Shown here: positions 188 through 63,459 of the stretch, piece by piece
Layout: every line of letters starts with the position of its first letter
Numbering within the stretch: the stretch's first letter is position 1
Origin: Halichondria panicea
Lineage: Eukaryota > Porifera > Demospongiae > Suberitida > Halichondriidae
NCBI RefSeq assembly: GCF_963675165.1
Contig: NC_087391.1
Span: 2,189,001 to 2,253,000 of the forward strand
Length of the DNA stretch: 64,000 nucleotides
Direction of reading: 5' to 3'
The notes under the pieces: generated by a model
What the model saw: only the letters and a program-made list of their open reading frames with translations
Databases searched by the model: none
What the model was told of the DNA's origin: nothing
Position numbers and translations under genes: made by a program

Positions 188-2309
188 CTGAGATGTTGAC
201 TTTCATGTGACTTCTGATTTGAACTTGACACATGAGTACACACACAATGATCACCAAGACGATGATCACCAGGAAGAGAGCTCCGCCCACTCCACCAGCT
301 ATACCAGCCACCAACGCCAGACTCACGGCACTTTCTACAGGGGGAGAAAGAGGATGTACAGTCATGTAGCTTTGATTGTTCAAAGGGAACATCAAAGCAT
401 TTAGTTGATGGGAATTTAATTACCTCATAATTATATCCCTCCATAATTTATGGGAAGATTATAACAATTAATAGCTGGGTAACCATGGGGAACAGTGAGA
501 CATCTGTAACTACATGTAGTTTCCAATAAGGTCAATGCCTCTAATATAATTAGTGGCTACAGTGCACACTAATAATTATGTGAGCCATTACATTGTACTA
601 TACACTCACCAGGTTCACAGTTACTTCCAGTGAATCCAGACAGACAGGTGGTACATCTTGTGGATATGTTTCGTTCAGAAAGACACACTGTACAGTCACG
701 GCTACTATCATACCCAGGCAGACAAGTGGAGCAGCTGGAGCCGAGATCGCGATTGCCTATGCACTCAGAGCAATTTGTGGTAGGGTCAAAGTTAGTGGCC
801 AAGCATGTTTGACAGAGTGTTGCTGGGTCCCCTCCTGGTAGAGCACACACACTGCAGTCTGTATCAGTGAACCTGTCTGGTTGTAGGCAGAGGGAGCAGT
901 CGGTAGAGGGGTCTCTGTTGGGTAGGCAACTAGTACAGTCCGAGGTGATGTCCCAGCCTGGTAGACACTGGGCGCAGTTGGTAGAGGGATCTCTGTTGGG
1001 TAGGCAACTAGCACAATCCGAGGTGATGTCCCAGCCTGGTAGACACTGGGCGCAGTTGGTAGAGGGATCTCTGTTCGGTAGACACTGGGTGCAGTTGGTA
1101 GAGGGATCTCTGTTGGGTAGGCACTGGGTGCAGTTTGTCTGAAGGTCATAGAGTTCCAACAAACATGATGTACAACCATCAGAAGGATTGAAGTTTGTGT
1201 CCAAGCATGATTCACAGTTAGTGGTTGGGTCATAGCTAGTCTGTACACAAATGGAGCAGCCTGTAGTATTATCCAGGTTGTAGAGGCAGTCGTTGCAGGC
1301 TACGAAAGGTGAAGGGTCAAATCGGTTATCAGTACATGTTAGAGTGCCATCAGCTTGACATGTCACCACTCGTGGATTGTTCTGAGGTGTTGTGGTACAG
1401 TCAGATCCACAGAAACCAGGAGAGCACTCGACTCTGAAACTCATCGTCATGTGAGATATGTCGTGGTATCCAGTGAATGTCATCTCCTCTGTGAAGTCTG
1501 CTCCAAGTTGGAGGTTGTCCAGGTTAATCAACAGACTGTCTATTATGTTCGGGAGTCGACTATCCACAGCTTCTATAAAGAACTGTATTTGCCCCTGTAT
1601 TAAAACTTCATCAAAATGGTAGGTGAAATGAATCTAAACTTACCATCCACATAGTAAAATCTGGTTTCGAAATACGTAAAGGATTGTCTGTTACTCCCAG
1701 TAGTGCTGTTGGACCTTGACTGAATGTTGTGCTCATTTCACTGAATGGGCAAGTGGAGGACATTGCACAGTCCGTGAAAAAATATGGAGGGTTATCAGCA
1801 TTGAGTTCACTGAGTGGTCTTGTCTCCAGTGATGCACCAAATGGTCTGATGGTCCAACGGAACCTCGTGTCACATCTCCCCTCTCCTGTGTTGTCACAGT
1901 TGGTGTTTGTGAATGGCTGATCATCACAGCACACTGGTACTAACAGGTCAGCACTTTCGAAATTACTCAGTGGAGCCACACATTCAGCACACAGTCCGGT
2001 TGGGTTGGTGTAGTTGACCAAGTTGACTATCAGTATAAATTCACCCTGAACCTGTCACAAGAGCACGAATAGTTACCTCCACATATCACAAATTCCACTA
2101 GAAAGTAACACATAATCAATATTCAACTGTGAGCTCAGTATGGAGTCAAATTTCATGTAGGAGAGCACGGAGGTGGTTAGATGTATAAACACAATGCAGC
2201 AGTAGATGACACTACTGTACCAATCTTAAAATCTACTTACAGCTCTGGGCGTGGCCACTAGTAAGGCTCCGAGTAGTAACACACAGAGTTGATTGCCCCT
2301 GACGTCCAT
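188..2309 (-). CDS. Gene A: Delta-like (MNNL-DSL-CxxC) membrane protein, 3' end outside window
   Basis: Coding exons on the minus strand: signal peptide 2241-2309, MNNL 1644-2051, DSL plus cysteine repeats 610-1594, transmembrane 188-334. The cytoplasmic tail exon lies beyond the left edge. Boundaries follow GT-AG sites and keep frame (phases 0, 0, 1, 1). The MNNL part shows the Notch-ligand pattern: NPTGLCAEC, a CC pair, CDTRFRW, then a Gly/Pro segment. It continues across intron 2 into QIQFFIEAVDS. The DSL part starts SFRVECSPGFCG. About 17 CxxC repeats follow. The membrane exon encodes a GG-rich start and a strongly hydrophobic Ile/Val/Leu helix. Its juxtamembrane stretch (CQVQIRSHMKVNISG) differs from the CKNRRRGHIKF type of the other copies. 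No inactivating change is seen. Identity as a Delta-like protein is family inference; binding to Notch is not shown. Confidence 0.82.
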
Positions 2310-2826
2310 TGCTCGTACAGACACACACTAGTGGAGAGTAAATATTGAGGACAGGGCATTCAAACAATGAACAACAGTTACATAGTGTGTGCTCGGTAGT
2401 AAGCTAATGTTTATATTGTATGTCTCTTGTTTTTGAGTGGCTCAGAATCAACACAGGGGGTATGTTGGCAACATTGTTGCTCAGCTGTTTTAATCATGTT
2501 AAAAACCTCAACAAGTGCTTGTAAGCCAATTACGTTGGCAGCCACTTGAGAAATACTTAAGTTGGAGCTGCTTGCCAACTATTAAAAATACTGTACATGA
2601 AGCCAGAGTGTGGAGTACACACGTACGTACAGGGATGCAATAAGGTTTAATAGAGCAACAGAAAGAAGAGACTGATCTCATATCGTTGCTAAGAATTAGA
2701 TCTAGCTTGGCTTGATTGAAACTGATATTTCACCAAGGAAAGGGGAAAGTTAATAATCATGTCTCCTACACTCTCCTACTATACTGTAGACACATGTACA
2801 TAGGTCTAGATCTGCCAGTCACTCAC

Positions 2827-3640: not shown

Positions 3641-6600
3641 TCACTGCCCTAGGTCATAATGAGACTCGGCCTCAACTGTTATCTTGCCAGGTGTTGTGTT
3701 CGTGTACACAGAGCTAGCCAGGGGGGCCAATGCAGGGGGCAATGCATTCGTACTATCTATAGGATTGTCCACGTAGTCATACGAATGTTTGACAGAGGAG
3801 GAAGCAGAAAGGAATTCGTTCGCGTCTACATAATCATAAGTGCGTTGAGACGTTTCCTTTTTTATCGAAGTAGGAAGGAAGTTGCTAGTTTTTGTGCAAT
3901 CATGTTCAGGTTGAGTTACTTGCTCTTGGGGATAATTGGCAGTATCGTACAAACTTCCGTTAGGAGGTGGAGCTTTAGGCTGTACCTGTTTCGAATGATG
4001 ATTATTTGCTACATCGTATGCAGGAAGCTCAGCATCATGCTTACCCACTTTCGAGTATGCATTAACACTAGGTATAACCGGAGGATGGGGATGATTGGCA
4101 GTATCGTACATGCTTCCGTTAGGAGGTGGAGCTTTAGGCTGTACCTGTTTCGGGTGATGATTATTTGCTACATCGTATGCAGGAAGCTCAGCTTCATGCT
4201 TACCCACTTTCGAGTATGCATTAACACTAGGTATAACTGCAGGAGGGGGGTAAGTTGTATCGTACATGCTTCCATTAGGAGGTGGAGCTTTAGGCTGTAC
4301 CTGTTTCGAGTGATGATTATTTGCTACATCGTATGCAGGAAGCTCAGCTTCATGCTTACCCACTTTCGAGTATGCATTAACACTAGGTATAACTGCAGGA
4401 GGGGGGTAAGTTGTATCGTACTCGTCTCTCCCACAGAAATCCTCATCTTCAATCTCTTCATAAGCTCCAGCAGACTTTAATGGATGCCTGGTCCCCTTCT
4501 TAGAAATTGAATCACCCGGAGCAGGGAATACTTTGTCATAAACCGGCTGCTCAATAAATGTGGCTGTGTCATAGTCAGCCAGAGAAGTTGGTTGAGGTGT
4601 TACGTTAGCTACCGGAGGTTGATGCAATTTAGAATAGTCTTCATCCTGTGGGTTGGTAGGAGGTGGTCGATGAGTATGATCAGCTGTGTCGTAAACATGT
4701 GGGCCTTCACTTGGCTGGCTGTCATCAGGATAGCTGGCTGTGTCGTATATTGGTCTCTCGAGAGTAGACGTGAGATTGTTAGTGCCTGTTTTTGAGGGCG
4801 ATCTGAAACTAGGGTAACATAATTGAGAGTATTTATTTTCTGTGTGCAAGTTCGAGGTCTCGTACGGTAAATTAGTAAACGCACAATCATCTGATGACCC
4901 TTTTCCAGTCATAGAATTCATTTCCAATCCAGGGTCATATTTCAGATTCCGAAACTTCTGTTCTGCTGAGGATCCATTTCTAGTTCCAGCATCATCATAA
5001 GCAGTATAAGCTGCTCCTTCATCTGTTAACAGCAAATTATTTATGTGGTTTACAATTATATGTTGCTTGGCAAAAAATGAACATGCAACTAAAACCATAG
5101 TTAAAGGGGGGCTGGAAATGAAATGAATCATGTGCTCTACGTACAAAAATTGATACTTGTGGTTAGAATTAAGGGCTTTGAGTTCAATTCGCGTTTTGAT
5201 TTTTAATTAGTGGAAATGATAGAGCTAATCAGCTGCTCTAGAGACGACCATTCAGGCAGGTATTGTATAAAGTGCCTTCCACTGCTTCGCGCTGTTTTTT
5301 AGGGATCTTAATTTCTTGTTGTTATTTATACTTTTAACAGTGATACTGCAAATGCATTAAATCTAAGACATGGACTGGTATACCATAACATATATACTGT
5401 AGTTGGATTGGGATTGGATGGCGTAAGTATATTCTATAATTATGCCTCGGTGCATGTGTGCATGCGCAGCAAGGTATACAGTAGTGTGTTTGTGTGTGTG
5501 TTACACGTGTATAGACTGCTACAGCTGCTCGAAGTGCAAGTAGGAACTTCTATGGGCTTCTAGTCATGTTTTCTTTGGATTTCAATGTGTGGATTTGCTT
5601 CGTTCTTAAGTCAATAGGCTTAGTTTTAAGTCTCTTCAGACTCGTGTGTATAGAAAATATGTTTATATAAAACTTACTTAGAAGTTAGCTCTGCACTAGA
5701 ACGCTAGCCATTGGTATAACTGCAAGAGTGAGGAAAGAACAGCAAAGCTGCACTGTTTCATGAGAATATAGCAGCCGTTAATTATGGGCTTTGAACTGAC
5801 TTTTGGCAACCTTCTTTTTTGCAACATTCCTGCATGCAAATTATGCATGCGAAATATTAGTGAATAGCAAAGTATTAGCTTGATGTGCAGCTAGCTGAGG
5901 CATCAGCACCCGCGGTGCTTTTATTATGTCATCATCTATCAATACAGCACCTCTAACACGCCACTCGCCATCATGCAAAGACACTACTGTATACTGATTC
6001 AAATTTGCAACCATAATTATTTACATGCTAGAACACAGCGTCAAGCACCGTTGGGAAACACGGACTGTATCACGCGGATGCTTCCTTTTCCAATCCCTTT
6101 TCTGTTCTTTATCTAAAACTATATATACATGTATAATTATAGTCCTTGTGCTTTAAACAGTGTATATATAATTATGCCCTCAATTATACACCATGCACGG
6201 ACAGTCCTTTTATCTACACCAATAGGGTTACCAGTAGGTAAATAATACAGCATCGTTCATTAGACCTTTCTTTTTGCTGATTCAATTGTCTTAAAGGGAC
6301 TGACTATGCTTGATCTCAAACCCTTCCTTCACACACATGTATTAACAGTCAGATTAACTCACCTGAAACAAACCTTACGTGACCTCTTCTCCGAACTTTA
6401 CACACAAGCACACACACAATGATTACCAAGACGATGATCACCAGGAAGAGAGCTCCACCCACTCCACCAGCTATACCACCCACAGAAGAGGCTGTTGGTG
6501 TAACTAAAAGTATTGTTATTTATCGCTTAATTAGCATGGTTTTAAACTAATAAAAACCGTATATCCCTAGTGCATGCACACCAAGGCATACAATTTACGG

Positions 6601-9600
6601 CAGAGGAGGCAGATATATGAAGCATTTACTCATTAAGGTTGTTAATAGACGAATCAATATCCGCATGCTTCTTATAAGTTTTTCTATGCAACTGATTTAG
6701 CTAGCACTGTTTTTAAGGGTAGCTACGCTAAAGCAAAGGCTCATTAAGGTATGAAAAAAAGCAGTGCAATTAAGAGAAACCCTATATCAAAACGGTGCAA
6801 AATATTCTTACGTACTGGAGCAGACATCAGTATATAGAGTAAGAACATACGAGTTGATAAAGGACACTATACTAAAGCATACTCGTATAATTATACAAAT
6901 GCCAGTCACTCACCAGGTTCACAGTTACTTTCAGTGAATCCAGCCAGACAGGTGGTACATCTTGTGGATATGTTGGGTTCAGAAAGACATACTGCACAGT
7001 CATGGTTACTATTATATCCAGGCAGACAAGTAGAGCAGCTGGAGCTGAGATCACGATTGCCTATGCACTCAGAGCAATTTGTATTAGGGTCAAAGTTAGT
7101 GGCTAAACATGTTTGACAGAGTGTTGCTGGGTCCCCTCCTGGTAGAGCACACACACCGCAGTCTGTATCAGTGAAGCTGTCTGGTTGTAGGCAGAGGGAG
7201 CAGTTGGTGACTGGGTCTCTGTTGGGTAGGCAACTAGTACAGTCCAAGGTGATATCCCAGCCTGGTAAACACTGGGTGCAGTTGGTAGAGGGATCTCTGT
7301 TGTGTAGGCAACTAATACAGTCCGAGGTGATGTCCCAGCCTGGTAAACACTGGGTGCAGTTTGTGACTAGGTCTCTGTTGGGTAGGCACTGGGTACAGTT
7401 GGTAGAGGAATCTCTGTTGGGTAGGCACTGGGTACAGTTAGCCAGGGGATCTCTGCTGGGTAGGCAACTAATACAGTCCGAGGCGATGTCCCAGCCTGGT
7501 AGACATTGAGCGCAGTTTGTGACTAGGTCTCTGTTGGGTAGGCACTGGGTACAGTTAGCCAGGGGATCTCTGCTGGGTAGGCAACTAATACAGTCCGAGG
7601 TGATGTCCCAGCCTGGTAGGCACTGGGTGCAGTTGGTAGAGGGATCTCTGTTGGGTAGGCAACTAATACAGTCCGAGGTGATGTCCCAGCCTGGTAGACA
7701 CTGGGTGCAATTTGTGACTAGGTCTCTGTTGGGTAGGCACTGGGTACAGTTGGCAGAGGGATCTCTGTTGGGTAGGCACTGGGTGCAGTTGGTAGAGGGA
7801 TCTCTGTTGGGTAGGCAACTAGTACAGTTCGTGGTGGTGTCCCAGCCTGGTAGACACAGGGTGCAGTTGGTAGCGGGATCTCTGTTGGGTAGACACTGGG
7901 TGCAGTTGGTAGAGAGATCTCTGTTGAATAGGCACAGGGTACAGTTAGTCAGGGAATCTCTGTTGGGTAGACACTGGGTACAGTCGGTAGAGGGATCTCT
8001 GTTGGGTAGGCAACTAGTACAGTCCGAGGTGATGTCCCAGCCTGGTAGACACTGGGTGCAGTCGGTAGAGGGATCTCTGTTGAGTAGGCAACTAGTACAG
8101 TCCGAGGTGATTTCCCAGCCTGGTAGGCACTGGGTACAGTCGGTAGAGAGATCTCTGTTGGATAGGCACTGGGTACAGTCAGCAAAGGGATCTCTGTTGA
8201 GTAGGCAACTAGTACAGTCCAAGGTGATTTCCCAGCCTGGCAGGCACTGGGTACAGTCGGTAGAGAGATCTCTGTTGGGTAGGCAACTAGTACAGTCCGA
8301 GGTGCTTTCCCAGCCTGGTAGGCACTCGGTACAGTCGGTAGAGAGATCTCTGTTGGGTAGGCACTGGGTACAGTCGGTAGAGGGATCTCTGTTGAGTAGG
8401 CAACTAGTGCAGCCCGAGGTGATTTCCCAGCCTGGTAGGCACTGGGTACAGTCAGTAGAGAGATCTCTGTTGGGTAGGCACTGGGTACAGTCGGTAGAGG
8501 GATCTCTGTTGGGTAGGCAACTAGTACAGGCCTTGGTGGTGTCCCAGCCTGGTAGACACTGGGTGCAGCTGGTAGAGGGATCTCTGTTGAGTAGGCAACT
8601 AGTGCAGCCCGAGGTGATTTCCCAGCCTGGTAGGCACTGGGTACAGTCAGTAGAGAGATCTCTGTTGGGTAGGCACTGGGTACAGTCGGTAGAGGGATCT
8701 CTGTTGGGTAGGCAACTAGTACAGGCCTTGGTGGTGTCCCAGCCTGGTAGACACTGGGTGCAGCTGGTAGAGGGATCTCTGTTGAGTAGGCAACTAGTAC
8801 AGTCCAAGGTGATTTCCCAGCCTGGTAGGCACTGGGTACAGTCAGTAGAGAGATCTCTGTTGGGTAGGCACTGGGTACAGTCGGTAGAGGGATCTCTGTT
8901 GGGTAGGCAACTAGTACAGGCCTTGGTGGTGTCCCAGCCTGGTAGACACTGGGTGCAGCTGGTAGAGGGATCTCTGTTGAGTAGGCAACTAGTACAGTCC
9001 AAGGTGATTTCCCAGCCTGGTAGGCACTGGGTACAGTTTGTAGAGGGATCTCTGTTGGGTAGGCACTGTATACAGTTTGTCTGTAGATCGTAGAATTCCA
9101 ACAAACATAATTTGCAGTTAGTGGTTGGGTCATAGTTGTCATCCAAACATGTAGAACAGTCTGTAGTAATATCTAGGTTGTAGAGGCAGTTGTTGCAGGG
9201 TTCTAGTGATGAAGAGTCTAATCGGTTATCAGTACACGTTAGAATGCCATCAGCTTGACATGTCACCACTCGTGGATTGTTCTTAGGTGTGGTGGTACAG
9301 TCAGGTCCACAGAAACCAGGAGAGCACTCAACTCTGAAACTCATGGTAATGTGAGATATGTTGTGGTATCCAGTGAATGTCATCTCCTCTGTGAAGCCTG
9401 CTCCAAGTTGGAGGTTGTCCAGGTCAATCAACAGACTGTCTATTATGTTTGGAAGTCCGCTGTCCACGGCTTCTATAAAGAACTGTATTTGTCCCTATAT
9501 AAATAATAAATAAAAAAATTGGTAGGTGAAATAAATACAAACTTACCGTCCACATAGTAAAATCTGTTCTTGAAACAGGTAGAGGATTGGGTGCTACCCC

Positions 9601-12600
9601 CAGTAGTGCTGTTGGACCTTGACCGAATGCTGTACTCATTTCACTGAATGGGCAAGTGCTGGAGGACATTGGACAGTTTGTGAAGAAGTACCCCATGCTG
9701 GGTCTTGTCTCTAGTGTAGCACCGAATGGTCTGAGGGTCCAACGGAACCTAGTGTCACATCTCTCATCTCCTGTGTTGTCACAGTTGCCTGAGTTGAATG
9801 GTAGTTCATCACAGCACACTGGTATTGTCAGTGCATGATGACATTCAGCACACAGTCCGGTTGGGTTGGTATAGTCGACCAAGTTGACAGTGAGAATAAA
9901 TTCACCACTTACCTGCTAAGAAATAAATTAAGCTGATTTTGATATGCTGTAGACTCTGATTCTGATATGTTACTAGCCTCGGTCTGCGACTAATTTTTAA
10001 AAAATATAACGAAAGGAAAAAAATAGCCTAGTATCTATACCGCGTAGAAACTGGATTATTAGCGTATGGGCTAATGTGGTCAATAGCAGACCTCTATATA
10101 TGAGGATGAGCTTATAATGCAGTCATTCGAGCCTCACCCAGTAACCACCAGATGTTTTCCTGTGACAAATGATGACTCGCTAGCTAACAGCTTTAGTGCA
10201 AGACTAGGTTATAAGTTGAAAAGAAAGTTTGTGCGAACAGATAATGCTATGAACGATTCTGCAACAGCCTTTAATCACTGTGAGTCAAACTAGCAATAAC
10301 TCGAGAAAGAAGCTGTAGTTCGCAAATCCATGAATTAAAATCCAAGGCTGCTTCGTCACATTTCAACCGTTGAGCAGTTACAGCTGGAATACACATCGTG
10401 ACACACATGCATGCACACACTGCATGATACGCTAATAAGACAAGCTGACTTTGTATTGGAATAATAATAATTATTACTATGAGCCAGCTCAGCAAAATTT
10501 TGTTGCGTACGTGATCGTGTCCAACCTCCTAAATTGAAACAGGTGAAGGTGCATGCATGCAGCATGTGCTGGCAGCCTGTATGCATATTCAGACACCACA
10601 GTATATACATCACATAAATCTTAATGTACACGTACATCATTGCAGAGAGCAGCAAAATCTTACAACTTGGATTCTTTTAGTGTGCCCACACTCACACGAA
10701 GACTAAAATTCAACTTCAAGTTGTAGCATTTTGCTGCTGTCTGTGGTGTTTCAAAGCAGCCTAATGATGTATATATATATATATATATATTATGTACGAT
10801 GCATGTTGTCTAAACATGCAGCACGCCTCCCTGTTCTGTTTTAGTGCGAGGTGAGGCTCATACTAAAACAGAAATGTAACTGTTTTAGTATGAGCTATAT
10901 GAGCCTATACGTAGAAACTGGATTATTAGCGCATGCGCTTTAGGGTCAATAGCAGAGCTCTATATACGCTTATATTCGAGAATGCACCTTATCCTATAAT
11001 AAAGTCATTTCGAGCCCCACCCAGCAACTGGATGTCTCTGTGATGAGAGCTGACTCTGTGATGAGAGCTGACTCGCAAGCTGGCTAGAAAATGAGCAAGC
11101 AAGGCAAGCAGGCAACCCTTACTAGATCTATTATGTTACAGTTCATTTTACAGTTCATTTACATCATTTTAAATTCATATTATAAAGACATTTATATTGA
11201 CCAGGAACTTGGAATAAAAGGACCTCACCCATGTCTCACATTCTCTCAGCATGATCAGACAAGGTAACAGCATGCCCAGAGAGTCCTTACATATCACCAG
11301 CTAATCATACACTGTACAAGCTAACTAGCTCATAGATAAAAAAAATTAGCTGAATCAATTCTAAAATGTCCTTTGCATAATTGGATCAGCGCTTCAATTC
11401 GAGTACAAAAAGCTTGCAGTTGAGCATGCGCTTAAAATAAAGATACGTTTATATAGTTGAGTAAGCGCTAATAATCCAGTTTCTACGGTATATATTATAC
11501 CTTCACACTAAAACAGAAACTTATACACCTGGAGGTGTACTGCATGTCTATACAACAGTAATAGAAGTACCATGCACAGATAATAGCTAATAACTCGAGA
11601 AAAGTTAGTGATCTTGCATGCATGCGTGTCCATATGCACCTCACACTAAAACAGAAAATAATACACATGTGGATCGAGGCGTGCTGCATGTTTAGACACA
11701 GTATATACATATCAGTGTACTAAACTATAATTGCATAACTACCACAGTTTCTATAGCATAATTATATACGCTTATATAATTGAGTAAGCGCTAATAATCC
11801 AGTTTCTACAATAATTATTGCATGGGCGCTATTTAATTTAAGTCGAGGAATCCACCTGTTCTCTATGCTTCTATCTATGTGAAGCAGCTTAGTCTATTTC
11901 CTTGGTTGAGAACGCTTAAACACTAGTCTGACGCCATAACAGGGCGGATCTAGAAGCAAAAGGGTGCTGAGCATGCAAGGGAAGCAAAGCGCAGGCCGAA
12001 ATCTGAGGCCACACCTACCAATTAGTGTGTGTGACTCAGTGAGAGTCTATTGCAAACAATAGAGACAACAGAAAATCCTATCTAGACTGTTTCATCTTCA
12101 CCGTTGTCCAGGTCAGTTGCATGCAGTCAGTTAATTAATAGCTATTATAATTTATAATCATTATAGGGTTGTCATCAGGTCAGACATTCAGATCATAGGA
12201 CAAACTAAAGTAGTTCTTGAGACCGGGGGGGGGTGCTTAAGCCCCCACTGGATCCGCCCCTGCGTAAGAGGCTCTCGTATGGTCCAGATGTCTGAGCTTG
12301 GTTCTGTATACAGGTTACGGCAAGTCTATGCATGCATATCATGGTGCATGCTTCCAACTGATACTTGTGAAGACAACTCGATCATACGACTATATATCGT
12401 ACAGGTATATGAGATCCTATTCTGGCTTCAGACTAGTGTGCAAGCCTTCCACACCAACATAATGGCATAAACCACAGCTTCATGGAACTCAGTCATGCAA
12501 GGGAGAGTATTTACGAAGCATGTTCTTAGTAAACGGACTAGTTTATGGTTATTTACTACATTCGTAGTACTATATATTACTCGGTAATTTGTAGTGTATC

Positions 12601-12738
12601 CAGCCCTATAGCGTTCCATTAGAAAAAAGTCAGGCCTGCATGCAAGAACGAGGTTAATAATTTACTTACAGTTGTTGATGTGACCATCAGTAGAACTGCG
12701 AGTAGTGCAACACGTAACAAGTATCCTCTGGTAACCAT
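3641..12738 (-). CDS. Gene B: Delta-like membrane protein with giant CxxC array and tyrosine-rich tail
   Basis: Exons: signal peptide 12670-12738 (MVTRGYLLRVALLAVLL type), MNNL 9547-9912, DSL plus array 6914-9494, transmembrane 6363-6503, tail 3641-5022. An alternative first coding exon of the MDIRGNQL type lies at 14347-14415. The array exon is 2,581 nt and gives about 860 residues, by far the longest array in the window. It is uninterrupted, with roughly 55-60 CxxC units. The tail is about 460 residues, extended by three copies of a 52-53 residue unit at about 3950-4420. It contains AYEEIEDED, many YDTA/YDVA motifs and ends HYDLGQ. Intron 1 is 2.7 kb and full of repeats, so the choice of first exon is the least certain part. 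Predicted role: type I membrane ligand or receptor with a signalling tail (inference). Confidence 0.83.
3950..4420 (-). repeat. Three tandem 156-159 nt units inside the tail of gene B
   Basis: Each unit encodes YDT, then a proline stretch, VIPSVNAYSKVGKH, ELPAYDVANNHH and KAPPPNGS, with three or more tyrosines. Other family members, including the duplicated partner G, carry one unit. The gain is in frame and adds about nine tyrosines. Confidence 0.85.
5023..6362. other. Intron 4 of gene B
   Basis: This 1.3 kb intron joins the transmembrane and tail exons, phase 1. It contains a GT-rich microsatellite near 5490-5510 and short AT palindromes. The paralogous intron in G (48281-49598) is collinear. 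No separate gene is seen. Confidence 0.6.
6914..9494 (-). repeat. Coding 39-bp minisatellite (CxxC repeat array) in gene B
   Basis: The basic unit is 39 bp, encoding CTQCLPNRDPSTN-like residues. Between about 8400 and 9050 a higher-order block of five units (195 bp) recurs three times. The marker variant ggccttggtggtgtcc sits near 8529, 8724 and 8919, exactly 195 bp apart. Near-identity of these blocks points to recent amplification by unequal exchange or gene conversion. Flanking units (about 6914-7190 and 9060-9494) are diverged and match other copies one-to-one. Confidence 0.9.
9913..12669. repeat. Intron 1 of gene B: nested inverted-repeat elements
   Basis: The end motif gtagaaactggattattag occurs at 10044 and 10911 and in inverted form ending at 11486 and 11809, which suggests one terminal-inverted-repeat element inside another. 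A second inverted pair reading GTTTTAGTG(C)GAGGTG lies near 10845 and 11640. A TA dinucleotide tract lies at about 10770-10790. The G intron (52697-56324) is collinear. No coding exon is convincing here. Confidence 0.55.
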
Positions 12739-12751
12739 CACGATCCACACA
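12670..12751 (-). other. Signal-peptide exon, type 2, of gene B
   Basis: The coding part is 12670-12738, the acceptor (ttttgcag) lies just above 12751, and the donor is gtaagt. It encodes a 23-residue leader (MVTRGYLLRVALLAVLL...), phase 0 into MNNL. A further noncoding exon donor is visible at 12921. The leader resembles those of C, D, E and H. Confidence 0.7.
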
Positions 12752-12921
12752 CTGCAAAACACAAATACATGTTCCTGGGCTTGTATAGATTGGTGAATAT
12801 GTAGATCTACAAGCACAAAACCTAGAGCCTGGCATGTACACATGTCAGCCTAACGCAGATCTAGATCTAGTTCTGAAATGCATGTTCAAAGAGCTGCATA
12901 CTTACTTTACCTTAACTTACC

Positions 12922-15297: not shown

Positions 15298-15350
15298 GAT
15301 ACACATCTAGATCTACAGTAGAAATGAGAACAGCATGCCCAGTAACTCAC

Positions 15351-38132: not shown

Positions 38133-38142
38133 GATCCACACA

Positions 38143-50003: not shown

Positions 50004-51720
50004 CAGGTTCACAGATACTTCCAGTAAATCCAAACAGACAGGTGGTACATCTTGTGGATATATTTCGTCCAGATAGACACACTGTACAGTCACGGCTGCT
50101 ATCATATCCAGGCAGGCAAGTGGAGCGCTGGAGCCAAGATTGCGATTACCTACGCACTCTAAACAATTAGATTTAGTATTAGGGTCAAAGTTAGTTGCCA
50201 AGCATGTTAGACAGAGTGTTTCTGGGTCTCCTCCCGGTAGAGCACACACACTGCAGTTTGTATCAATGAACCTGTCTGGTTGTAGGCAACTAATGCAGTT
50301 GGTAGAGGGATTTCTGTTGGGTAGACACTGAGTGCAGTTGGTAGAGGGATCTCTGTTCGGTAGACACTGAGTGCAGTTGGTAGAGGGATCTCTGTTCGGT
50401 AGGCAACTAGTGCAGTTGGTAGAGGGATTTCTGTTGGGTAGACACTGAGTGCAGTTGGTAGAGGGATCTCTGTTGGGTAGGCAACTAGTGCAGTTGGTAG
50501 AGGGATTTCTGTTGGGTAGACACTGAGTGCAGTTGGTAGAGGGATCTCTGTTGGATAGACACTGAGTGCAGTTAGTAGAGGGATCTCTGTTGGGTAGGCA
50601 ACTAGTACAGTCCGAGATAATGTCCCAGCCTGGTAGACACTGGGCGCAGTTGGTAGAGGGATCTCTGTTCGGTAGACACTGAGTGCAGTTGGTAGAGGGA
50701 TCTCTGTTGGGTAGGCAACTAGTACAGTCCGAGATAATGTCCCAGCCTGGTAGACACTGGGTGCAGTTGGTAGAGGGATCTCTGTTGGGTAGACACTGGG
50801 TGCAGTTGGTAGAGGGATCTCTGTTGGGTAGGCACTGGGTGCAGTTGGTAGAGGGATCTCTGTTGGGTATATGCACTGGGTGCAGTTGGTAGAGGGATCT
50901 CTGTTGGGTAGACACTGAGTGCAGTTGGTAGAGGGATCTCTGTTGGGTAGGCAACTAGTACAGTCCGAGATAATGTCCCAGCCTAGTAGACACTGGGTGC
51001 AGTTGGTAGAGGGATCTCTGTTGGGTAGACACTGGGTGCAGTTGGTAGAGGAATCTCTGTTGGGTAGACACTGAGTGCAGTTGGTAGAGGGATCTCTGTT
51101 GGGTAGGCAACTAGTATACAGTCCGAGATAATGTCCCAGCCTGGTAGACACTGGGTGCAGTTGGTAGAGGGATCTCTGTTTGGTAGACACTGAGTGCAGT
51201 TGGTAGATCGATCTCTGTTGGGTAGACACTGGGTGCAGTTGGTATAGGGATCTCTGTCGGGTAGACACTGGGTGCAGTTGGTAGAGGAATCTCTGTTGGG
51301 TAGGCACTGGGTGCAGTTGGTAGAGGGATTTCTGTTGGGTAGGCACTGGGTGCAGTTGGTAGAGGAATCTCTGTTGGGTAGACACTGGGTGCAGTTGGTA
51401 GAGGGATCTCTGTTGGGTAGGCACTGAGTGCAGTTGGTAGAGGAATCTCTGTTGGGTAGGCACTGGGTGCAGATGGTAGAGGGATCTCTGTTGGGTAGGC
51501 ACTGAGTGCAGTTGGTAGAGGAATCTCTGTTGGGTAGGCACTGGGTGCAGTTGGTAGAGGGATCTCTGTTGGGTAGACACTGGGTGCAGTAGGTAGAGGG
51601 ATCTCTGATGGGTAGACACTGGGTGCAGTTGGTAGAGGGATCTCTGTTGGGTAGACACTGGGTGCAGTTGGTAGAGGGATCTCTGTTGGGTAGACACTGG
51701 GTGCAGTTTTTCTGTAGGTT
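50004..51720 (-). repeat. Coding 39-bp minisatellite in gene G
   Basis: It has the same unit as gene B, but almost all units are the Asn form (STNCTQC) with long runs of LPNRDPSTN. The five-unit 195-bp block of B is absent. So the arrays of two recent duplicates were rebuilt independently after the duplication. Confidence 0.85.
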
Positions 51721-52696
51721 ATAGAATTTCAACAAGCATGTTGTACACTCATCGAAAGGATTGAAAGTAGAGTCCAAGCATGACGCACAGTTATCGGTTG
51801 GGTCATATCTTGTGTTAACGCATGATGAGCAACTTGTTTTAACGTCATAGTTGAGAAAGCAGGCTTGACAGTTTGTGTCTGGATCATATTTGGCATCCAA
51901 ACAGGTAGAACAGCCTGTAGTAATATCCAGGTTGTAGAGGCAGTCGTTGCAGGCTACAAGAGGTGAAGGGTCTAATCGGTTATCAGTACATGTTAGAGTA
52001 CCATCAGCTCGACATGTCGCCACTCGTGGATTGTTCTGAGGTGTGGTGGTACAGTCAGATCCACAGAAACCAGGAGAGCATTCGACTCTGAAACTCATGG
52101 TCATGTGAGATATGTTGTGGTATCCAGTGAACGTCATCTCCTCTGTAAAGTCTGCTCCAAGTTGAAGGTTGTCCAGGTCAATCAACAGACTGTCTATTAT
52201 GTTTGGCAGCATACTGTCCACAGCTTCTATGAAAAACTGTATTTGTCTCTATATATAATTATATATAAATAAAGAGTTAAAACATGGTAGGTGAAATGAA
52301 TATACAACTTACCGTCCACATGCTATAATATGTTTTTGAAACAGGTAGAGGATTGGGTGTTACTCCCAGTAGTGCTGTTGGACCTTGACCGAATGTTGTA
52401 CTTATTTCACTGAATGGGCAAGTGCTGGGTGACATTGTACAGTCTGTGAAGCTGTACCCCATGCTGGGTCTTGTCTCTAGTGATGCACCGAATGTTCTGA
52501 TGGTCCAACGGAACCTGGTGTCACATCTCTCCTCTCCTGTGTTGTCACAGTTGCGAGATTTGAATGGTTTATCATCACAGCACACTGATACCAACTGGTC
52601 TTGAGCAACTCCAGCTTTAACCTGACATTCAGCACACAGTCCGGTTGGGTTGGTGTAGTCGACCAAGTTGACAGTGAGAATAAATTCACCACTTAC

Positions 52697-55600
52697 CTGC
52701 TAAGAAATAAATTAAGCCGATTTTGATAATTATGTGTAGACTCTGATTCTGATAAGTTACTAGCCTCGGTCACAGGCTAATTTATAATGGAAGGAGAAAA
52801 ATAGCCTGGTATGTACCGCGTAGAAACTGAATTATTAGCGTATGGGCTAATGTGGTCAATAGCAGACCTCTATACGCTTATATTTGAGGATGCGCTTATA
52901 ATGCAGTCATTTCTATAGCCCCATCCAGTAACCAGATGTTCCTGTGACAATGATGACTTGCTAGCTAACAGCTTTAGTGCAAGACTAGCTTATAAGTTGA
53001 AAAGAAAGTTTGTGCGAACAATGATGCTATAAAAGATTCTGAAGAGACTACAACAGCCTTCGATCACTGTGAGTCAAACTAGCAATAACTCGAGAAAGAA
53101 GCTTTATTTTCCAAATTCACGAATTAAAATCGTGGCTAGAAGCTTATAGAAGTGTAAGGTATTGCAACCATTGGAGTTACAGCTGGAATACACATCGTGA
53201 CACACACACACACAGTCAGCTTTATCGTATCCCTTGTGCGACTACGCCTCGAGGCTTAACAAACATGACAATCATGCTTCTAAGATCATTCATCAAGCCA
53301 TCAGGTACATGTATATAGACTTTTGTTTCCGTTAAGCTCCTCTTCTATAACACTCTTGATTAATGTATGGTAGATACTAATTACACCTCTTATAACACTC
53401 TCAGTAATGCTTTTTGAGTGAAGCAAACATGGCAAGAGGCATTAGCACAACGCAGCTTGCAAAGTTCATTATGCCTCAGTGCGCATGCGCACGCGAGGTA
53501 TATACGGTAATGTGTTTGTGCATGTGTCTGTCTGTGTGTCTGTGTGCTCAAGGATCAATGAAGTGTAAGTAAGAGTTAAAGTTTCTATAAGCTTCTAGTT
53601 GGATTTTAATTGCAAAATAATGCTTCGTTCTCGAGTTATGCCTACTTGGAATGTTATTATATAGCCTTTTCAGAAGGGTGTGTAGCAAACTTATCCATGG
53701 AGTGTGCTAGTATAGCTAGCTCTGCACTAGAACGCGCTAGCTATTGGTAGCTGCAAGAGAGATGCGAGGCTCGATCTATACTGTACTGATGCAGCCATTA
53801 AGTTTAGCTTTTAGACTTGTATTTTTGGCATCCTTTTTAATCAATCATGGTCAATCATTTCGCACTCTTTGATTCCCTAGCCCTGTGATTACAGATGCAG
53901 CAAAATTACCATAAGAACATTATGATACCTGCATGTGTGTATTAGCAATAATTATAGCTTTCTGTTATGTAGCTTTGACACACCCACCGAGGCATCAGCA
54001 CCCGCGGTGCTTCATTGTACCAGGATTAGCTAGGGTTGCATTGTACTGGCAGACAAAAATCTAGTAAAGAATCTAGCAAACGCTCTGATAACTCGTCAGA
54101 ATAGAAGGTATATATTTGGGTGCACACTCGAAGGAGCAAGGAATTTCAAAATAGTCTGATCTCAGTCTCTGATATGCTAACAAGACAAGCTGACTTTGGA
54201 TTGAAACAATAATATACAATGAGCCAGCTCAATAAAATATTGTTGCAGCACGTGATCATGTCCAACCTCCTAATCAGGTGAAGGTGCATGCATGCAGCAT
54301 GTACTGGCAGCCTGTATGCATGTTCAGACACCACAATATATAGATCTCTCATAAATCTTATACTATGCACGTACATCACTGTAGAGTAATACATACATGC
54401 AGAGAGCAGCAACTTGGATTCTTATAGTGTGAGCCTGCATGCCCACAATCACACGAAAACTAAGTTTGTAGCATTTGCTGCTGTCTGTGGTGCTTCAAGC
54501 AGCGTAATACACAGTAGACTCTCGCTATTCCGGCTCTCTGAAGTACGGCCACCTCGATATATCGGCCATTTGGCTTGGCACGGAATGCTAGCTATATGTT
54601 TACTGCCCAAAACTCACCCTGAAGTACGGCCACTCGCTATTCCGTTTACCGGCCAGTGCTGGCTGTCCCAAACAAGGTTTTCAATGTAATTTTATACGTA
54701 TATTACGGCCGGATATGACGTTTTGGGTGTGGTTTAGCAAATAAAATTGGATTACACTTAAATAGAGAACATTATCCTACATTATCCTCGAGACAAGAAC
54801 CGCAAAAGTAGTCATTAAATTTGAGGTAAGGTCGTTTTTAAGCCGCGCCTATTTCTTTGAGCTACAGCCACCTCGCTATTCCGGCCAAGCTGCATGGTCC
54901 CAAGGGTGACCGGATTAATGAGAGTCTACTGTAGTTGGATAGATAGATATAATTATGTACAATGCATGTTGTCTAAACATGCAGCACACCTCCATGTGTA
55001 TATAAGTTTCTGTTTTAGTGCGAGGTGAGGCTCACACTAAAAACAGAAATAGTATGAGCTATATATATATGAGCCTATATATTATACCTTCACACTAAAA
55101 CAGAAACTTATACACCTGGAGGTGTACTGCATGTCTATACAACAGTAATAGAAGTACCATGCACAGATAATAGAATGATACCAGCGAAAATCTAATAACT
55201 CTGAGAGAAGTTTATTTTTGTTTTAGTGTGATTTGCATGCGCATATGCATATCCACACCTCACACTAAAACAGAAAATAATACACATGTGGATCAAGGCA
55301 GGCTGCATGTTTAGACACAGTGTAATATACGTAAGTCTATACACATCAGTATACTAAACTGCTTTGTATATAACTACCACAGACACCAGCAAATTCAGGA
55401 GAGTTTCCGGTATTTCTTTAGTGTGAGCCCTCACATAATTATAACAACAGAAAGTTTGGCCTTTCTTTTTACTGATTTGTAGCATGACACATGCATCAGT
55501 ATACTACTATGTCTATAAGCTAGACTACCTTTATGTGTCATGCACATGATCTGCAGGTCACAGCTACACTGCTGTGCAGCACTGCACTGGCAATGATTAT

Positions 55601-56324
55601 ATTAAAACTCACGCAATATCAAACAATGCCCTATCAAACAATGCCCATTGTTTCCGGTATTTCAGTTTCAGTGTATTACAGATTTTATGGCCTAACATAC
55701 GCTTACATGTATATAATTGAGTAAGCGCTAATAATCCAGTTTCTACGATATTGCATGGGTGCTATTTAATTTAATTCGGGGAATCCCTCCACCTGTTCTC
55801 TTTTTAATCTATGCTTCTCTATCTATGTGAAGCAGCTTAGTCAAACTAAAGTAGTTTCTGAGACTGGGGGGAGGAGGTACTCAAGCCCCCTAAACCCCCC
55901 ACTGGATCCGCCCCTGCGTAAGAGGCTCTCATCTACCTCTATGATGGTTGTATGGTCCAGATGTCTGAGCTTGGTTCTGTACAGGTTACGGCAAGTCTAT
56001 GGTGCTTCCTACTGTTGCTTGTGAAGACAACTCAATCATACGACTATCGTAGAGGTAGATGAGATCCGCTTATGGCTTCAGACTAGTGTGCAAGCCTTCC
56101 AAACCAACATAATGGCATAAGCCACAGCTTCATGGAACTTAGTCATGCAAGGGAGAGTATTTATGAAGCATGTTCTTAGTAAACGAACTAGTTTATATAC
56201 GGTATAATTTACTACATTCATAGTACGATTAGTTGGTAATTTGTAGTGTATCCAGCCCTATAGCGTTCCATTAGAAAAAGTCAGGCCTGCATGCAAGAAC
56301 GAGCTAGGTTAATAATCTACTTAC
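52697..56324. repeat. Intron 1 of gene G: inverted-repeat elements
   Basis: It is collinear with the B intron, with gtagaaactg-type ends at 52820 and, inverted, ending at 55746. It has gained about 0.9 kb near 53,200-54,110 (containing a tail-intron-like stretch with GAGGCATCAGCACCCGCGG) and the 420-bp element listed separately. Confidence 0.5.
54512..54931. mobile_element. 420-bp element with CAGTAGACTCTCG ends
   Basis: CAGTAGACTCTCGCTATTCCGG at the left and CCGGATTAATGAGAGTCTACTG at the right form terminal inverted repeats, with further inverted copies of GTACGGCCACCTCG inside. The B intron near 10,760 lacks it. The ends look like those of pogo-type elements. No transposase frame is present. 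Confidence 0.75.
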
Positions 56325-56406
56325 AGTTGTTGATGTGACAATCAGTAGAACTGCGAGTAGTGCAACACGTAACATGTATCCTCTGGTAACCATCACGATC
56401 CACACA
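56325..56406 (-). other. Type 2 leader exon of gene G
   Basis: It encodes MVTRGYMLRVALLAVLL with donor gtaagt and acceptor ttgcag; a noncoding exon donor follows at 56575. It is the counterpart of 12670-12751. Confidence 0.65.
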
Positions 56407-57990
56407 CTGCAAACACAAATACATGTTCCTGGGCTTGTATAGATTGGTGAATATGTAGATCTACAAGCACAAAACCTAGAGCCTAGCATGTACACATGTC
56501 AGCCTAACACAGATCTAGATCTAGTTCTGAAATGCATGTTCAAAGAGCTGCATACTTACTTTACCTTAACTTACCACAGTCACAGTATACTAGCACCTAT
56601 TTGACACACAGCTATTAAAGATTTATCAGCCACTGAACTGAATGTAATAATGATTTTCAATGTTGGGATATAAAATCAGCGTGGGCAGAACGCTCCCACA
56701 ATCAGAGCAGAATCTATGACTGGTGACAAAAAGTACACAACCAGCTGATTATGCATGGTTCCTGCATGGTCCACAACTTAATTAGAGATGGTCACCGCCT
56801 TTACTTTTCTGCAGAGAATCTATCTGCTAAACCCACCTGACCTCTGCCAAACATTAATTTTATTAAAGCTCTGTTCCAGGCCATTGCACGTTTTTAAGGA
56901 AAGACGCTGCATGATGATTGCCATGTAATTCATGGATATCGTATCGATCATTATCGATCATACCATAATTTGTCCATTCTAGTCTTTATAGTTCAGCTGA
57001 CACAAGTTTGATAGAAACTTGACCAGGGACATGCAATGTATTATACTGTTTGAAAGAACAACTTTCTACTGGCTAAATTTGGATATCTATATCCTATAAA
57101 ACAAACTGGACAGTTTATGAACAAGTGCATGATCGCAAACACGCAACACTCACAGGCAAATAGTTGCTAGGATTATATAATAATTATAATAGTCTGATCG
57201 TTTGAGCTTCATCGGGAAACTGTGTCATGTGAATTGGTACCACTGTACCACTATACACTACTGCACGATACAAAGTAACTGGCACATGCAATAACTAGTG
57301 TCACCGTGGTCCAGGCCATGTAATGTGCTATTGTACTAGGATGCCACATTGTGCTTGTACGCTATATTTTTGATGCACAGCATGCATGCCAGCAAAGATA
57401 GTAGAGGAAGAGGGATTGGCAACGTGCCTGAGAACTCCTAGTATGTTTTTGTATGTGGGTAAGGGAACCCTCTTAGCATGCAACCTTGGCAGTGTTTGGC
57501 AAACTTTGTGAAGGACGGTGCATTGGAGCTGCTACTGGAATGACCTTTCACCTTAAGCTTTATACTATGGCACGACCACGTGCACTGCTTTTTGCTGAGT
57601 TGGCACAACTGATGACTAAGATGGGTGCCAGTCTGGTCACACGTTCATCTATAATTATATCAATAAAATACTAGCCGAACCAATCCCCAGCAATCCCACT
57701 CCATTCTGACGAGATCAGTTATATCATTCACCTTTATAGACTAGTGAGCAAAGTAGAGTGGCAACTTGCAGTAACTAACTGTCTATATAGCTACAGTATT
57801 CACCTTCAACTATCATGCACAAAATTCAGTCACACGAATGATTACCCCCACATATCACAAATAGCACTAGAAAATAACATATTCAACTGTGAGCTCAGTA
57901 CGGAGTCAAAGCATGGAGTTGGTTATAATTATGTATAAACACAATGCAGCAGTAGATGACACTAGAGTACCAATCTTATAATCTACTTAC

Positions 57991-58059
57991 AGCTCTGGGC
58001 GTGGCCACTAGTAAGGCTCCGAGTAGTAACACACAGAGTTGATTGCCCCTGATGTCCAT
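57991..58059 (-). other. Type 1 leader exon upstream of gene G
   Basis: It encodes MDIRGNQLCVLLLGALL with donor gtaagt; an upstream UTR donor lies at 59078. It is the counterpart of 14347-14415. Its retention in both duplicates means the two-leader layout is older than the A-B-C to F-G-H duplication. Confidence 0.6.
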
Positions 58060-59662: not shown

Positions 59663-62600
59663 TCACTGCCCTAGGTCATAATGAGCCTCGGCCTCAAGTG
59701 TTATCTTGTCAGGCATTGTGTTCGTGTACACAGAGCTAGCCAGGGGGGCCAATGCAGGGGGCAATGCATTTGTACTATCTATAGGATTGTCCACATAGTC
59801 ATACGAATGTTTGGCGGAGGAGGAAGCAGAAAGGAATTCGCTTGCGTCTGCATAATCATAAGTGTGTTGAGACGTTTCCTTTTTTATCGAAGGAGGAAGA
59901 AAGTCGCTAGTTTCTGTATAGTTATGTTTAGGTCGAGTTGCTTGCTCTTGGGGATAATCGGCAGTATCGTACAGACTTCCATTAGGAGGTGGAGCTTTAG
60001 GTTGTACCTGTTTCAGGTGATGATTATTTGCTACATCGTATGCAGGAAGCTCAGCTTCATGCTTACCCACTTTCGAGTACGCATTAACACTAGGTATAAC
60101 TGAAGGAGGAGGGTAAGTTGTATCGTACTCGTCTCTCCCACGAATATCTTCATCTTCAATTTCTTCATAAGCTCCAGCAGACTTTGATGGATGCCTGGTT
60201 CCTTTCTTAGAAAGTGAATCGTCTGGAGGAGGGAAGGCTTCGTCATAGACCGGCTGCTCAATAAATGTGGCTGTATCATAGTCAGCCAGAGAAGAAGATG
60301 GTTGAGGTGTTACGCTTGTTACCGGAGGTTGACGCAGTTTAGAATAGTCTTCATCCGGTGGGTTGGTAGGAGGTAGTCGATGAGTATGATCAGCTGTGTC
60401 ATTAACAGGTGTGCCTTCTCTTGGCTGGCTGTCATCAGGATAGCTGGCTGTATCATACATTGGTCCATCGAGAGTAGACGTGAGATCCTGGGTGCCTGTT
60501 TTTACCGTATGTGAGGGTGGGCTGACACTAGGGTGGCGTAATTGAGAATAATCATCTTCCGTGTTCACATTTGAAGTCTCATACAGTGAATTAGTAAATG
60601 CATGATCATCTGATGACCCTGTTCCAGTCTTTAAGTCCATTTCCAATCCAGGGCCATATATCGAATTCTGAAACTTATGTTCTGCTGACGATCCACTTCC
60701 AGTTCCAGTTCCAGTATTATCGTAAGCATTACGAGCTGCTCCTTCATCTGTTATAACAATAGCAGGAAACACGCACAAAGGTTATAACAATGAGTTGCTA
60801 GGAAAATATGAGCATGCAACTAAAACTAATATAGCCATTGTATTCCAAAGTATTCAATTATTATTCAAATTTAACTGCATAGCTCACCTGAAACAAATTT
60901 GATGTGACCTCTCCTTCGATTTTTACACACAATTTTTACACACGAGCACACACACAATGATCACCAAGACGATTATCACCAGGAAGAGAGCTCCACCCGC
61001 TATACCACCCACAAGACCACCATTCACGGCAGAAACTGACGGTGTAAATACAGGTCACATCAATCAACATGTTTGCACCTAATTAGTTGGCTAGATTACC
61101 TTAAGGTGACATATTTTCATAGGTAGATTTGTTTGCGTTTTTACAGTTTTGTACATTTTGCGGTATAATTTTTGCGAAATGTCGATCTGGATACATTAAA
61201 CAAGAGGGCGGCCAATTATTTGCGAGTACTAATTTTTGCGATTTTACTGTCATTCGCAGAAATAGCAGAAATTAATACACGCGAAAATATGTCACCTTAA
61301 GGTATGCATTAAGAATGATATGCCTGTGCGTGCACACCAAAACATATCACCAACAAAGGAGATTGGTCATGTAATAGCGGAGGAATGTGCATGCACGGAT
61401 AAAGAAGAAAAGATATACGTACCTACAGAGAAAACTTGCTGTCATAGCTATAGTAAGCTAGAGACTGCTAACGATCACAGCATTCTACACTACTAAGTAA
61501 TGATACGTCCTATACAGAATGTGAGTAGCATACCGCATAGCAGGTATTATTTTTTGAGGGTATAAACTTTCGCGGAAAGACTGGTAGGAAGGATTTCGCG
61601 GATTTAATGTTCGTGGGAGTATCAGCCCTTTGGCGCATGCATGCATGCTGATATTAATGTTCGTGGGTATAAATGTTCGCGGTACATGCAAAAACCGCGA
61701 AAGTTTATACCTTTGAAATAATTATACCCGCTATAATTATGGTAGTCATACTCGAAGCAATTACTTTATAAGCCAGATACTTACAGGTACATTGATTGGT
61801 TTGGTCTTAGTAGGGCTCGTAAACAGGAGGTGTAATACAGGATTGAAAAACATGCAAGAACGCAACATTAAGATAAAATAGCTGAGTTAGCGGGTTAAAC
61901 CGTGACCAACCTCCTCTGGAGTCAACTAAAACTTGAAGAGTAGGTAAACGTCACAGCAATTAATCATTACTAATTAAGAACCTATACACATTTACTAAAC
62001 AAACACCAGTCACTTACCAGGTTCACAGTTACTTCCAGTGAATCCAGCCAGACAGGTGGTACATCTTGTGGATATGTTTCATCCAGATAGACACAGTGCA
62101 CAGTTAAGGCTACTATCATATCCAGGCAAACAAGTGGAGCAGCTGGAGCTGAGATCAAGATTGCCTATGCATTCAGAGCAATTTGTGTTAGGGTCAAAGT
62201 TAGTGGCCAAGCATGTTTGACAGAGTGTTGCTGGGTCCCCTCCTGGTAGAGCACACACACTGCAGTCTGTATCAGTGAACCTGTCTGGTTGTAGGCAGAG
62301 AGAGCAGTTGGTGACTGGGTCTCTGTTGGGTAGGCAACTAGTACAGTCCGAGGTAATGTCCCAGCCTGGTAGGCACTGGGTGCAGACTACAAGAGGTGAG
62401 GGGTCAAATCGGTGATCAGTACATTGACATGTCGCCACTCGTGGATTGTTCTGAGGTGTTGTGGTACAGTCAGATCCACAGAAACCAGGAGAGCACTCGA
62501 CTCTGAAACTCATGGTCATGTGAGATATGTTGTGGAATCCAGTGAACGTCATCTCCTCTGTGAAGTCTGCTCCAAGTTGGAGGGTGTCCAGGTCAATCAA

Positions 62601-63459
62601 CAAACTGTCTATTATGTTCGGGAGTCTGCTGTCCACGGCTTCTATGAAGAATTGAATCCGCCCCTATATATAGAAGGCAGGTAAAACCAAAAACCACTCC
62701 ATGAAAAAAACATTAACTTACTGTCCATGCATTAAAAGTTGTGCTTGAAACAGGTAGAGGATTGGGTGCTACCCCCAGTAGTGCTGTTGGACCTTGACCG
62801 AATGTTGTGCTCATTTCATTGAATGGGCAAGTGCTGGGGGACACTGAACAGTCTGTGAAGTTGTACCCAGTGCTGGTTCTTATCTCTAGTGATGCACGGA
62901 ATGGTCTGATGGTCCAACGGAACCTGGTGTCACAGCTATTCTCTCCTGTGTTGTCACAGTTTCCAGATTTGAGTGGTAGTTCATCACAACACACTGGACC
63001 AAATGTTGTGTTTAAGTGACATTCAGCACACAGTCCGGTTGGGTTGGTGTAATTGACCAAGTTGACAGTTAGAATAAATTCACCACACACCTGCAAAGGA
63101 AATGTTTGAGCTCAGGCAATTTTCTGACCTCTAAAAGTAGCAACAGCTGGGATGACAATTAATGCCGCGTCCTAAATAGAGGTAAATGTAGCCACACCAT
63201 AGCCTCGATTCTAGCGGAATCAAATGTTTTTAAGTGGCCTGAAATCGAGGCAAGTAGACTCTGTAGAGCTACCTTCAATTAGATGCGACTCTCTAAATAT
63301 GCAACACCAGGACTTCAACATAATTTTTCAACCTCCAAATGAAGCGACCTCTATTTTATGCTGTAGTTTTTTTATTTTGATTCTTACAGTTTTGGATGTG
63401 GCCATCAGTATGACCGTGAGTAGTGCCACACGTAACATGTATCCTCTGGTAACCATCAT
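59663..63459 (-). pseudogene. Gene H: Delta-like paralogue truncated by nonsense and frameshift
   Basis: Partner of C. Exons: leader 63388-63459, MNNL 62722-63090, DSL plus repeats 62018-62663, transmembrane 60888-61035, tail 59663-60747. The DSL part has lost an in-frame stretch (ADGTLT of its relatives), and the first repeats are fused out. A CGA codon of the relatives is TGA at 62079-62081, ending the protein before the membrane. The membrane exon also has a 13-bp tandem duplication near 60927-60945 that gives a stop right after the helix. The tail frame itself is intact. Either a decaying gene or a source of a short soluble MNNL-DSL protein. Confidence 0.8.
61099..61302. mobile_element. 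204-bp MITE in intron 3 of gene H
   Basis: The ends CCTTAAGGTGACATATTTTC and the inverse are flanked by TA on both sides. The same position in C, D and F lacks it. Degraded relatives, with GAAAATATGTCACCTAAGG, lie near 14,590 and 58,295. Confidence 0.85.

Follow-up and report, generated by a model that had tools for sequence, protein, structure and literature searches.

What does a sponge do with a row of genes that resemble Notch ligands in outline and end in long, tyrosine-rich tails? The question is raised by a 64-kb stretch of the Halichondria panicea genome (C15:2189001-2253000, hereafter the window; coordinates are counted within it unless prefixed with a contig), which a preliminary description, made from the sequence alone, had read as a tandem cluster of eight such genes, possibly derived from Delta and possibly engaged in signalling or recognition. 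Judged from sequence, they are probably part of a lineage-specific family of single-pass cell-surface receptors that descends from Delta-type Notch ligands and carries diversified tails of the phosphotyrosine type. This reading is based on the profile match of the ectodomain to the Deltas of the same genome, on the occurrence of one ectodomain type on several tails, and on the mosaic relationships of the ectodomains. The genome comprises 131 Mb in 39 contigs.

The window contains eight copies of one five-exon gene, arranged head to tail and all on the minus strand. Each copy reads, in order, as a signal peptide exon, E2 (MNNL-like), E3 (an MNNL/DSL-like part followed by 13-residue CxxC repeats), E4 (membrane helix) and E5 (tail). 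The tandem arrangement and the common architecture of the preliminary description are thus confirmed, with AG acceptors before E2 and E3 and a helix exon in all eight copies, and the limits that it had proposed, 188-63459, agree with the outermost exons, a helix exon on the left (201-332) and a signal exon on the right (63391-63456). The cluster extends past the window, comprising 14 copies in all (C15:2.187-2.305 Mb). In copy g8, from which the phases were read, the E2/E3 join is in phase 0 and the E3/E4 and E4/E5 joins are in phase 1. The E3 donor, like the AG ahead of the first tail codon, is present in all eight window copies; in the whole cluster, the donor (GTRAG after an exon-final G) was found in 13 of the 14 copies (the exception is g2, where no end of E3 could be located), and the AG preceding the tail also in 13 (the tail start of g2 is off register). 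All 14 copies have the helix exon E4; its donor was seen in all of them except g13, and its acceptor was not seen in g7 and g12, both partial matches.

A signal exon was found in all eight window copies, as a weak match in four of them and as two candidates each in g7 and g12. It is of two kinds: the first is a strong match in g8 and g13 and was also found near g7 and g12, while the second is a weak match (E 0.014-0.041) that six cluster copies, including four window copies, have at the same position and followed by a GT donor. Signal peptides and helices were called by eye and, on this reading, the window copies share with Notch ligands a signal peptide and a single membrane helix. Exons E2-E5 are open in six of the eight copies; g6 has an in-frame stop in E3 and a broken E4, and g7 has frame breaks in the E3 repeats and in E5. 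The features of the window are as follows.

201..2309, minus strand: copy g13; signal exon 2241-2309, E2 1644-2051, E3 611-1594, E4 201-332 (donor not seen)
C15:2187481-2188653, just left of the window: tail of copy g13 (391 amino acids, 20 tyrosines)
3644..14415, minus strand: copy g12; signal exon 12679-12738 or 14347-14415 (two candidates), E2 9547-9912, E3 6915-9494 (58 CxxC), E4 6364-6480 (partial match), E5 3644-5023 (460 amino acids, 32 tyrosines)
7158..9101, minus strand: longest 39-nucleotide (13-residue CxxC) coding minisatellite of the window, inside E3 of g12
15983..20513, minus strand: copy g11; signal exon 20448-20513 (weak match), E2 19784-20143, E3 18657-19727, E4 17275-17409, E5 15983-17095 (371 amino acids, 24 tyrosines)
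24476..28382, minus strand: copy g10; signal exon 28317-28382 (weak match), E2 27615-28001, E3 26621-27559, E4 25720-25854, E5 24476-25540 (355 amino acids, 23 tyrosines)
33330..37026, minus strand: copy g9; signal exon 36961-37026 (weak match), E2 36284-36664, E3 35484-36227, E4 34574-34708, E5 33330-34394 (355 amino acids, 24 tyrosines)
42243..45871, minus strand: copy g8, the model copy; signal exon 45803-45871, E2 45201-45614, E3 44409-45152, E4 43478-43612, E5 42243-43307 (355 amino acids, 23 tyrosines)
47230..58059, minus strand: copy g7, frame-broken; signal exon 56334-56393 or 57991-58059 (two candidates), E2 52313-52696, E3 50005-52248 (frame changes in the repeat array), E4 49600-49716 (partial match), E5 47230-48281 (frame changes)
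59666..63456, minus strand: copy g6, disabled; signal exon 63391-63456 (weak match), E2 62722-63090, E3 62019-62663 (in-frame stop), E4 60889-61036 (frame broken), E5 59666-60748 (361 amino acids, 23 tyrosines)

The first step towards an answer concerns the origin of the ectodomain. Genome-wide searches gave 29 MNNL and 26 DSL matches, which are true exons, and none of them falls inside the window; its left flank has two true MNNL+DSL genes on the same strand, at distances of about 4 and 11 kb. A family profile was built from 27 of the 30 ectodomains read (g6, g17 and g20 were left out for their stops) and compared with four of the MNNL+DSL genes found in this genome. The two aligned with an hhalign probability of 98.6% and a score of 105 over 192 columns, compared with 27.9 for the best of 100 column shuffles and 16.0 for the reversed profile. 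The match also holds exon by exon: E2 scored 35.4 against Delta E2 (shuffles up to 29.0) and E3 scored 68.1 against Delta E3 (shuffles up to 19.4), while the pairings with the non-corresponding Delta exon gave 16.4 and 12.4, within the range of the shuffles. The four-Delta profile in turn matches fly Delta (7alk, 5.5e-37) and chains of DLL1 and JAG1. Because of the margin over the shuffles, the exon-by-exon matches and this link to known Deltas, we regard it as well supported that the ectodomain is Delta-derived, although degenerate.

In the profile-profile comparison E2 and E3 match true MNNL exons, which points to an MNNL domain that is homologous but divergent. In the uncut alignment, the family's exon junction, between a tryptophan and a glycine, coincides with the W/G at which the Delta exons appear to meet, the Delta junction being putative. 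The region aligned to DSL is more altered: it has lost one cysteine, gained another and shows no counterpart of the GHxxC motif seen in the four Deltas, and the degenerate DSL part, aligned to a true Delta, reads ECSPGFCGPDCTTTPQNNPRVATC. No DSL domain with six cysteines and a curated hidden Markov model (HMM) match was found in the one spliced protein and nine ectodomains searched with Pfam.

Other genes with MNNL or DSL domains were noted in the same genome. At G000:C2:2054501-2063500 there is another tandem MNNL+DSL array, with a Ser/Thr-rich stalk and a membrane helix, where the open reading frame (ORF) 8219-8686 appears to encode a tail in which EEPxYS/T-type motifs are repeated. Tandem genes with MNNL and EGF-like domains and no obvious DSL domain occur at C12:1856001-1864000 and C14:5698001-5706000, the latter with a readable membrane helix and a tail bearing NPVYG/NPIYG motifs. 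At C4:5589001-5597000, ORF 5598-4774 has three DSL matches in one exon, preceded by an MNNL-like exon (by eye); this exon recalls the multi-DSL genes reported in cnidarians (PMC2770060).

After the DSL-like part, in the place where Deltas carry EGF repeats, the family has a 39-nucleotide coding minisatellite translating into the 13-residue CxxC repeats; no EGF family matched the one spliced protein that was scanned. The number of CxxC motifs varies from 5 to 58 per E3 frame among 28 copies (g17 and g20 set aside; stops shorten some frames). Within window positions 6909-9494, part of the array is organized by eye in blocks of 195 nucleotides, i.e. five units, suggesting a recent block expansion. 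A family member on contig C6 (C6:5297001-5307000, ORF 4478-2286) has a repeat exon of 731 residues with 48 CxxC motifs, and its short tail ends in YDYIQMN.

The tail of the cluster copies, here called tail A, is long and proline-rich. In the seven unbroken tails of the window copies, 20-32 tyrosines were counted in 355-460 residues, so that the length given in the preliminary description stands, while its count of some 24 or more tyrosines does not hold for all copies. The share of tyrosine is 6.5% in the g8 tail versus 1.7% in the cluster ectodomains, and the g8 tail contains seven YDxA motifs in addition to NPIY, YEEI and YMN; 71 SH2 matches were found in the genome. Across 12 copies (g13 left out), the 23 columns with a tyrosine majority have a mean conservation of 0.978 versus 0.915 for the other columns (permutation p 0.0036), and only the six phenylalanine columns are more conserved. 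The earlier notion of a signalling tail is well supported as anatomy, and as anatomy only. In contrast, the distinction from Delta and Jagged drawn on tyrosine density was overdrawn, because the tails of two true Deltas of this genome are also tyrosine-rich (12 of 238 and 11 of 212 residues are tyrosines) and the divergent Delta tails of Amphimedon have predicted SH2 and PTB sites (PMC3482393).

How far does the family reach beyond the window? The ectodomain search gave 97 matches, corresponding to at least 43 E3-type loci on two contigs (counted by eye, broken ones included), distributed as follows.

C15, 2.19-2.305 Mb: 14 loci
C15, 1.07-1.13 Mb: 14 loci
C15, 1.26-1.32 Mb: 10 loci
C15, 1.92-1.96 Mb: 2 loci
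C15, 36 kb: 1 locus
C6: 2 loci

Tails were read in 30 of the 43 loci, and one ectodomain type was found on different tyrosine-bearing tails (14 A, 10 d, 5 c and 1 b), which would be suited to signalling. Tails b, c and d are short (62-107 amino acids, 3-8 tyrosines), and all three occur within one array. Tail A was found only in the cluster at C15:2.19-2.305 Mb among the 42 matches of a tail search at E 0.01 or better, a threshold at which weak matches can be missed; the five matches outside the cluster are helix-only (E 0.004-0.009). A common origin of tails A, d and the two Delta tails was considered and is unsupported (hhalign probability 0.4-1.2%, the lower value for A against d); tail A gave no blastp match to tail c at E 1, and two A tails compared by blastp with D1 gave only E 0.25-0.76. 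Tail b, tail d and the C6 tail form a related group (3.9e-11, 1.7e-7). Tail c is borderline against the C6 tail (0.019) and scores 0.24 against d, and it could be either a third kind of tail or a member of that group. Bacterial and archaeal genomes and viral contigs were also scanned for relatives, giving patterns in 24 and 38 stretches, none of which was confirmed. In the open literature, as represented by titles and the beginnings of abstracts, no report of such a family expansion was found.

The ectodomains appear to be mosaic. Synonymous divergence (dS) in E3 is 0.30 between the clusters at 2.19-2.305 and 1.07-1.13 Mb, compared with 0.30 within the first, and in E2 it is 0.30 between versus 0.25 within. 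In the tree and neighbour tests, which covered 28 ectodomains (those read except g17 and g20), the approximately unbiased (AU) test rejected the tail A copies as a single ectodomain clade (p 0.0012), a test that recombination can distort. Runs of matching variants shared by tail A copies and copies with other tails exceeded those in shuffles (z 12.2 in E2 and 10.8 in E3, at a minor count of at least 3). Ectodomain relationships thus do not seem to follow the tails, although some cluster signal is left, and both gene conversion and tail swapping are possible. The ratio of non-synonymous to synonymous substitution rates (dN/dS) among cluster copies is 0.56 for E2, 0.28 for the start of E3 and 0.41 for the tail (13 copies, g7 left out). 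E2, which varies in length, is the least constrained part, with a local pN/pS (the corresponding ratio of proportions) of 1.07 in its first loop (codons 20-40); local values above 1 also occur in the tail, at codons 0-20 (1.26), 120-140 (1.03) and 130-150 (1.50); all four are raw values.

It should be noted that several results weigh against a family of Delta-derived, diversified receptors. An HMM search of spliced proteins against MNNL and DSL had been proposed in the preliminary description as a check, and in one spliced protein and nine ectodomains Pfam matched neither domain, so that by this test its claim of Delta descent would fall; the claim is upheld by the comparison with the genome's own Deltas. 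A search of the PDB with the family profile retrieved no Delta or Jagged chain and only one marginal Notch EGF chain (E 9.6), and AlphaFold2 models of the ectodomain (translated through the 48-nucleotide intron, with TAG as Q) and ten CxxC repeats had a mean predicted local distance difference test score (pLDDT) of 31.9 and 34.1, for which reason nothing is drawn from them. Short motifs such as YDxA can occur by chance. No exon part tested had an overall dN/dS above 1, and there is therefore no strong sign of an arms race. As to the mosaic pattern, the nearest neighbour lies in the same cluster for 19 of the 28 ectodomains (9.5 by chance, p 0.0014), the tail A label is clustered on the tree (4 changes versus 9.6 in shuffles) and the C6 copies stand apart (E2 dS 0.65), all of which indicates that any exchange is partial. 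At a minor count of at least 6, the run test gave z 16.0 for E2 and 2.9 for E3, the latter inside the shuffle range, and pairs within the tail A cluster exceed the shuffles too (z 7.9, 7.3, 7.2 and 2.0), as rates that vary along the gene would also cause.

Of the alternatives, the one that survives best, although we consider it unlikely, is that these are ordinary fast-evolving Notch ligands, i.e. many Deltas acting on one or two Notch-like receptors, with tail tyrosines used for endocytosis or adaptor binding. The homology of the ectodomain to Delta, the true Deltas adjoining the window and the tyrosine-rich Delta tails of this genome are consistent with it. So is the situation in Amphimedon, where there are five Deltas, one without EGF repeats, and SH2/PTB motifs are predicted in the tails; even in these Deltas, the bilaterian DSL binding sites are not conserved (PMC3482393). 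However, the family lacks a DSL cysteine and the GHxxC motif present in the four Deltas of this genome, as well as any EGF match in the spliced protein and any Pfam DSL. In addition, at least 43 loci face only 3 matches to LNR (Notch) exons in the genome, corresponding to one or two Notch-like loci. It is therefore unlikely that all the copies are Notch ligands, and canonical Notch activation is unlikely to be their main job.

Somewhat less probable again is that the products are mainly adhesion or matrix proteins, in which the CxxC array would be a stalk of variable length and the tail would connect to the cytoskeleton. The wide range of repeat numbers and a long, proline-rich tail would be expected in such proteins, but the tyrosines are conserved above the tail average and whole tails differ between clusters, so that signalling fits better than anchoring. 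A further alternative, in which most of the genes are tandem copies under drift that have no role of their own and persist through copy turnover, is highly improbable in view of the dN/dS values below 1, the conserved tyrosines and the six open copies of eight, even if two window copies are frame-broken and other clusters contain broken copies as well (g17, g20 and the 36-kb locus, which has three stops).

The likeliest reading is thus that of a recognition receptor, and the number of loci, the different tails and the mosaic ectodomains together make recognition by a diversified family more likely. With the Delta/Jagged ligands, and especially with the Amphimedon Deltas, among which AmqDelta4 has no EGF repeats (PMC3482393), the family shares the signal peptide, an MNNL-derived domain, a DSL-derived region, one helix and SH2/PTB-type tail motifs, and its exon junction lies at the putative junction of the four Deltas of this genome. 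It differs from them in having no Pfam-detectable MNNL or DSL, in the loss of a DSL cysteine, in CxxC repeats in place of EGF and in its many loci with several tails per ectodomain. Vertebrate paired receptors, such as Siglec-11/16 (PMC5701461) and CEACAM (PMC2832619), are alike in bearing similar ectodomains on different tails, and possibly in ectodomain exchange between members with different tails; in our family no Ig domain was found, and the Delta-type domain takes its place. The helices, read by eye, contain no charged residue of the kind that marks the activating members of paired receptors. A pattern resembling the immunoreceptor tyrosine-based inhibitory motif (ITIM) was present in 3 of the 12 tails scanned (both c tails and g13), and opposite outputs are not known. 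From these likenesses, the family may work like a paired receptor system, while bearing no clear marks of the vertebrate families or of standard Deltas. Invertebrate allorecognition loci, such as Hydractinia Alr and Botryllus fuhc, are likewise clusters of type I membrane proteins in which copies turn over and pseudogenes occur; the ectodomain is different.

If the family does act in recognition, a C2-like head, variable in its first loop, would meet a ligand on a neighbouring cell or a microbe, and the CxxC stalk would set the reach through its variable repeat number. Clustering of the receptors would then lead tyrosine kinases to phosphorylate the tail, on which SH2/PTB proteins could dock. 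Fitted with different tails, receptors of related binding specificity would give different outputs, as paired receptors do. A more daring extension, which we advance only tentatively and consider doubtful, is that a sponge has built a system of self/non-self or microbial recognition from Notch-ligand ectodomains, with a diversifying head, a variable stalk and interchangeable phosphotyrosine tails, in parallel to the Ig-based paired receptors; the clusters on C2, C12 and C14 would be sister branches of it.

Notch ligands are usually presented as a few conserved signals of development. In this sponge, a Delta-type ectodomain appears to have turned into a multigene family in which the tyrosine-bearing tails differ, an arrangement familiar from vertebrate immune receptors, and domain searches alone miss such descendants of Delta. 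To our knowledge, the genes behind the recognition reactions of sponges are largely unknown, and the cluster provides concrete candidate loci for them.

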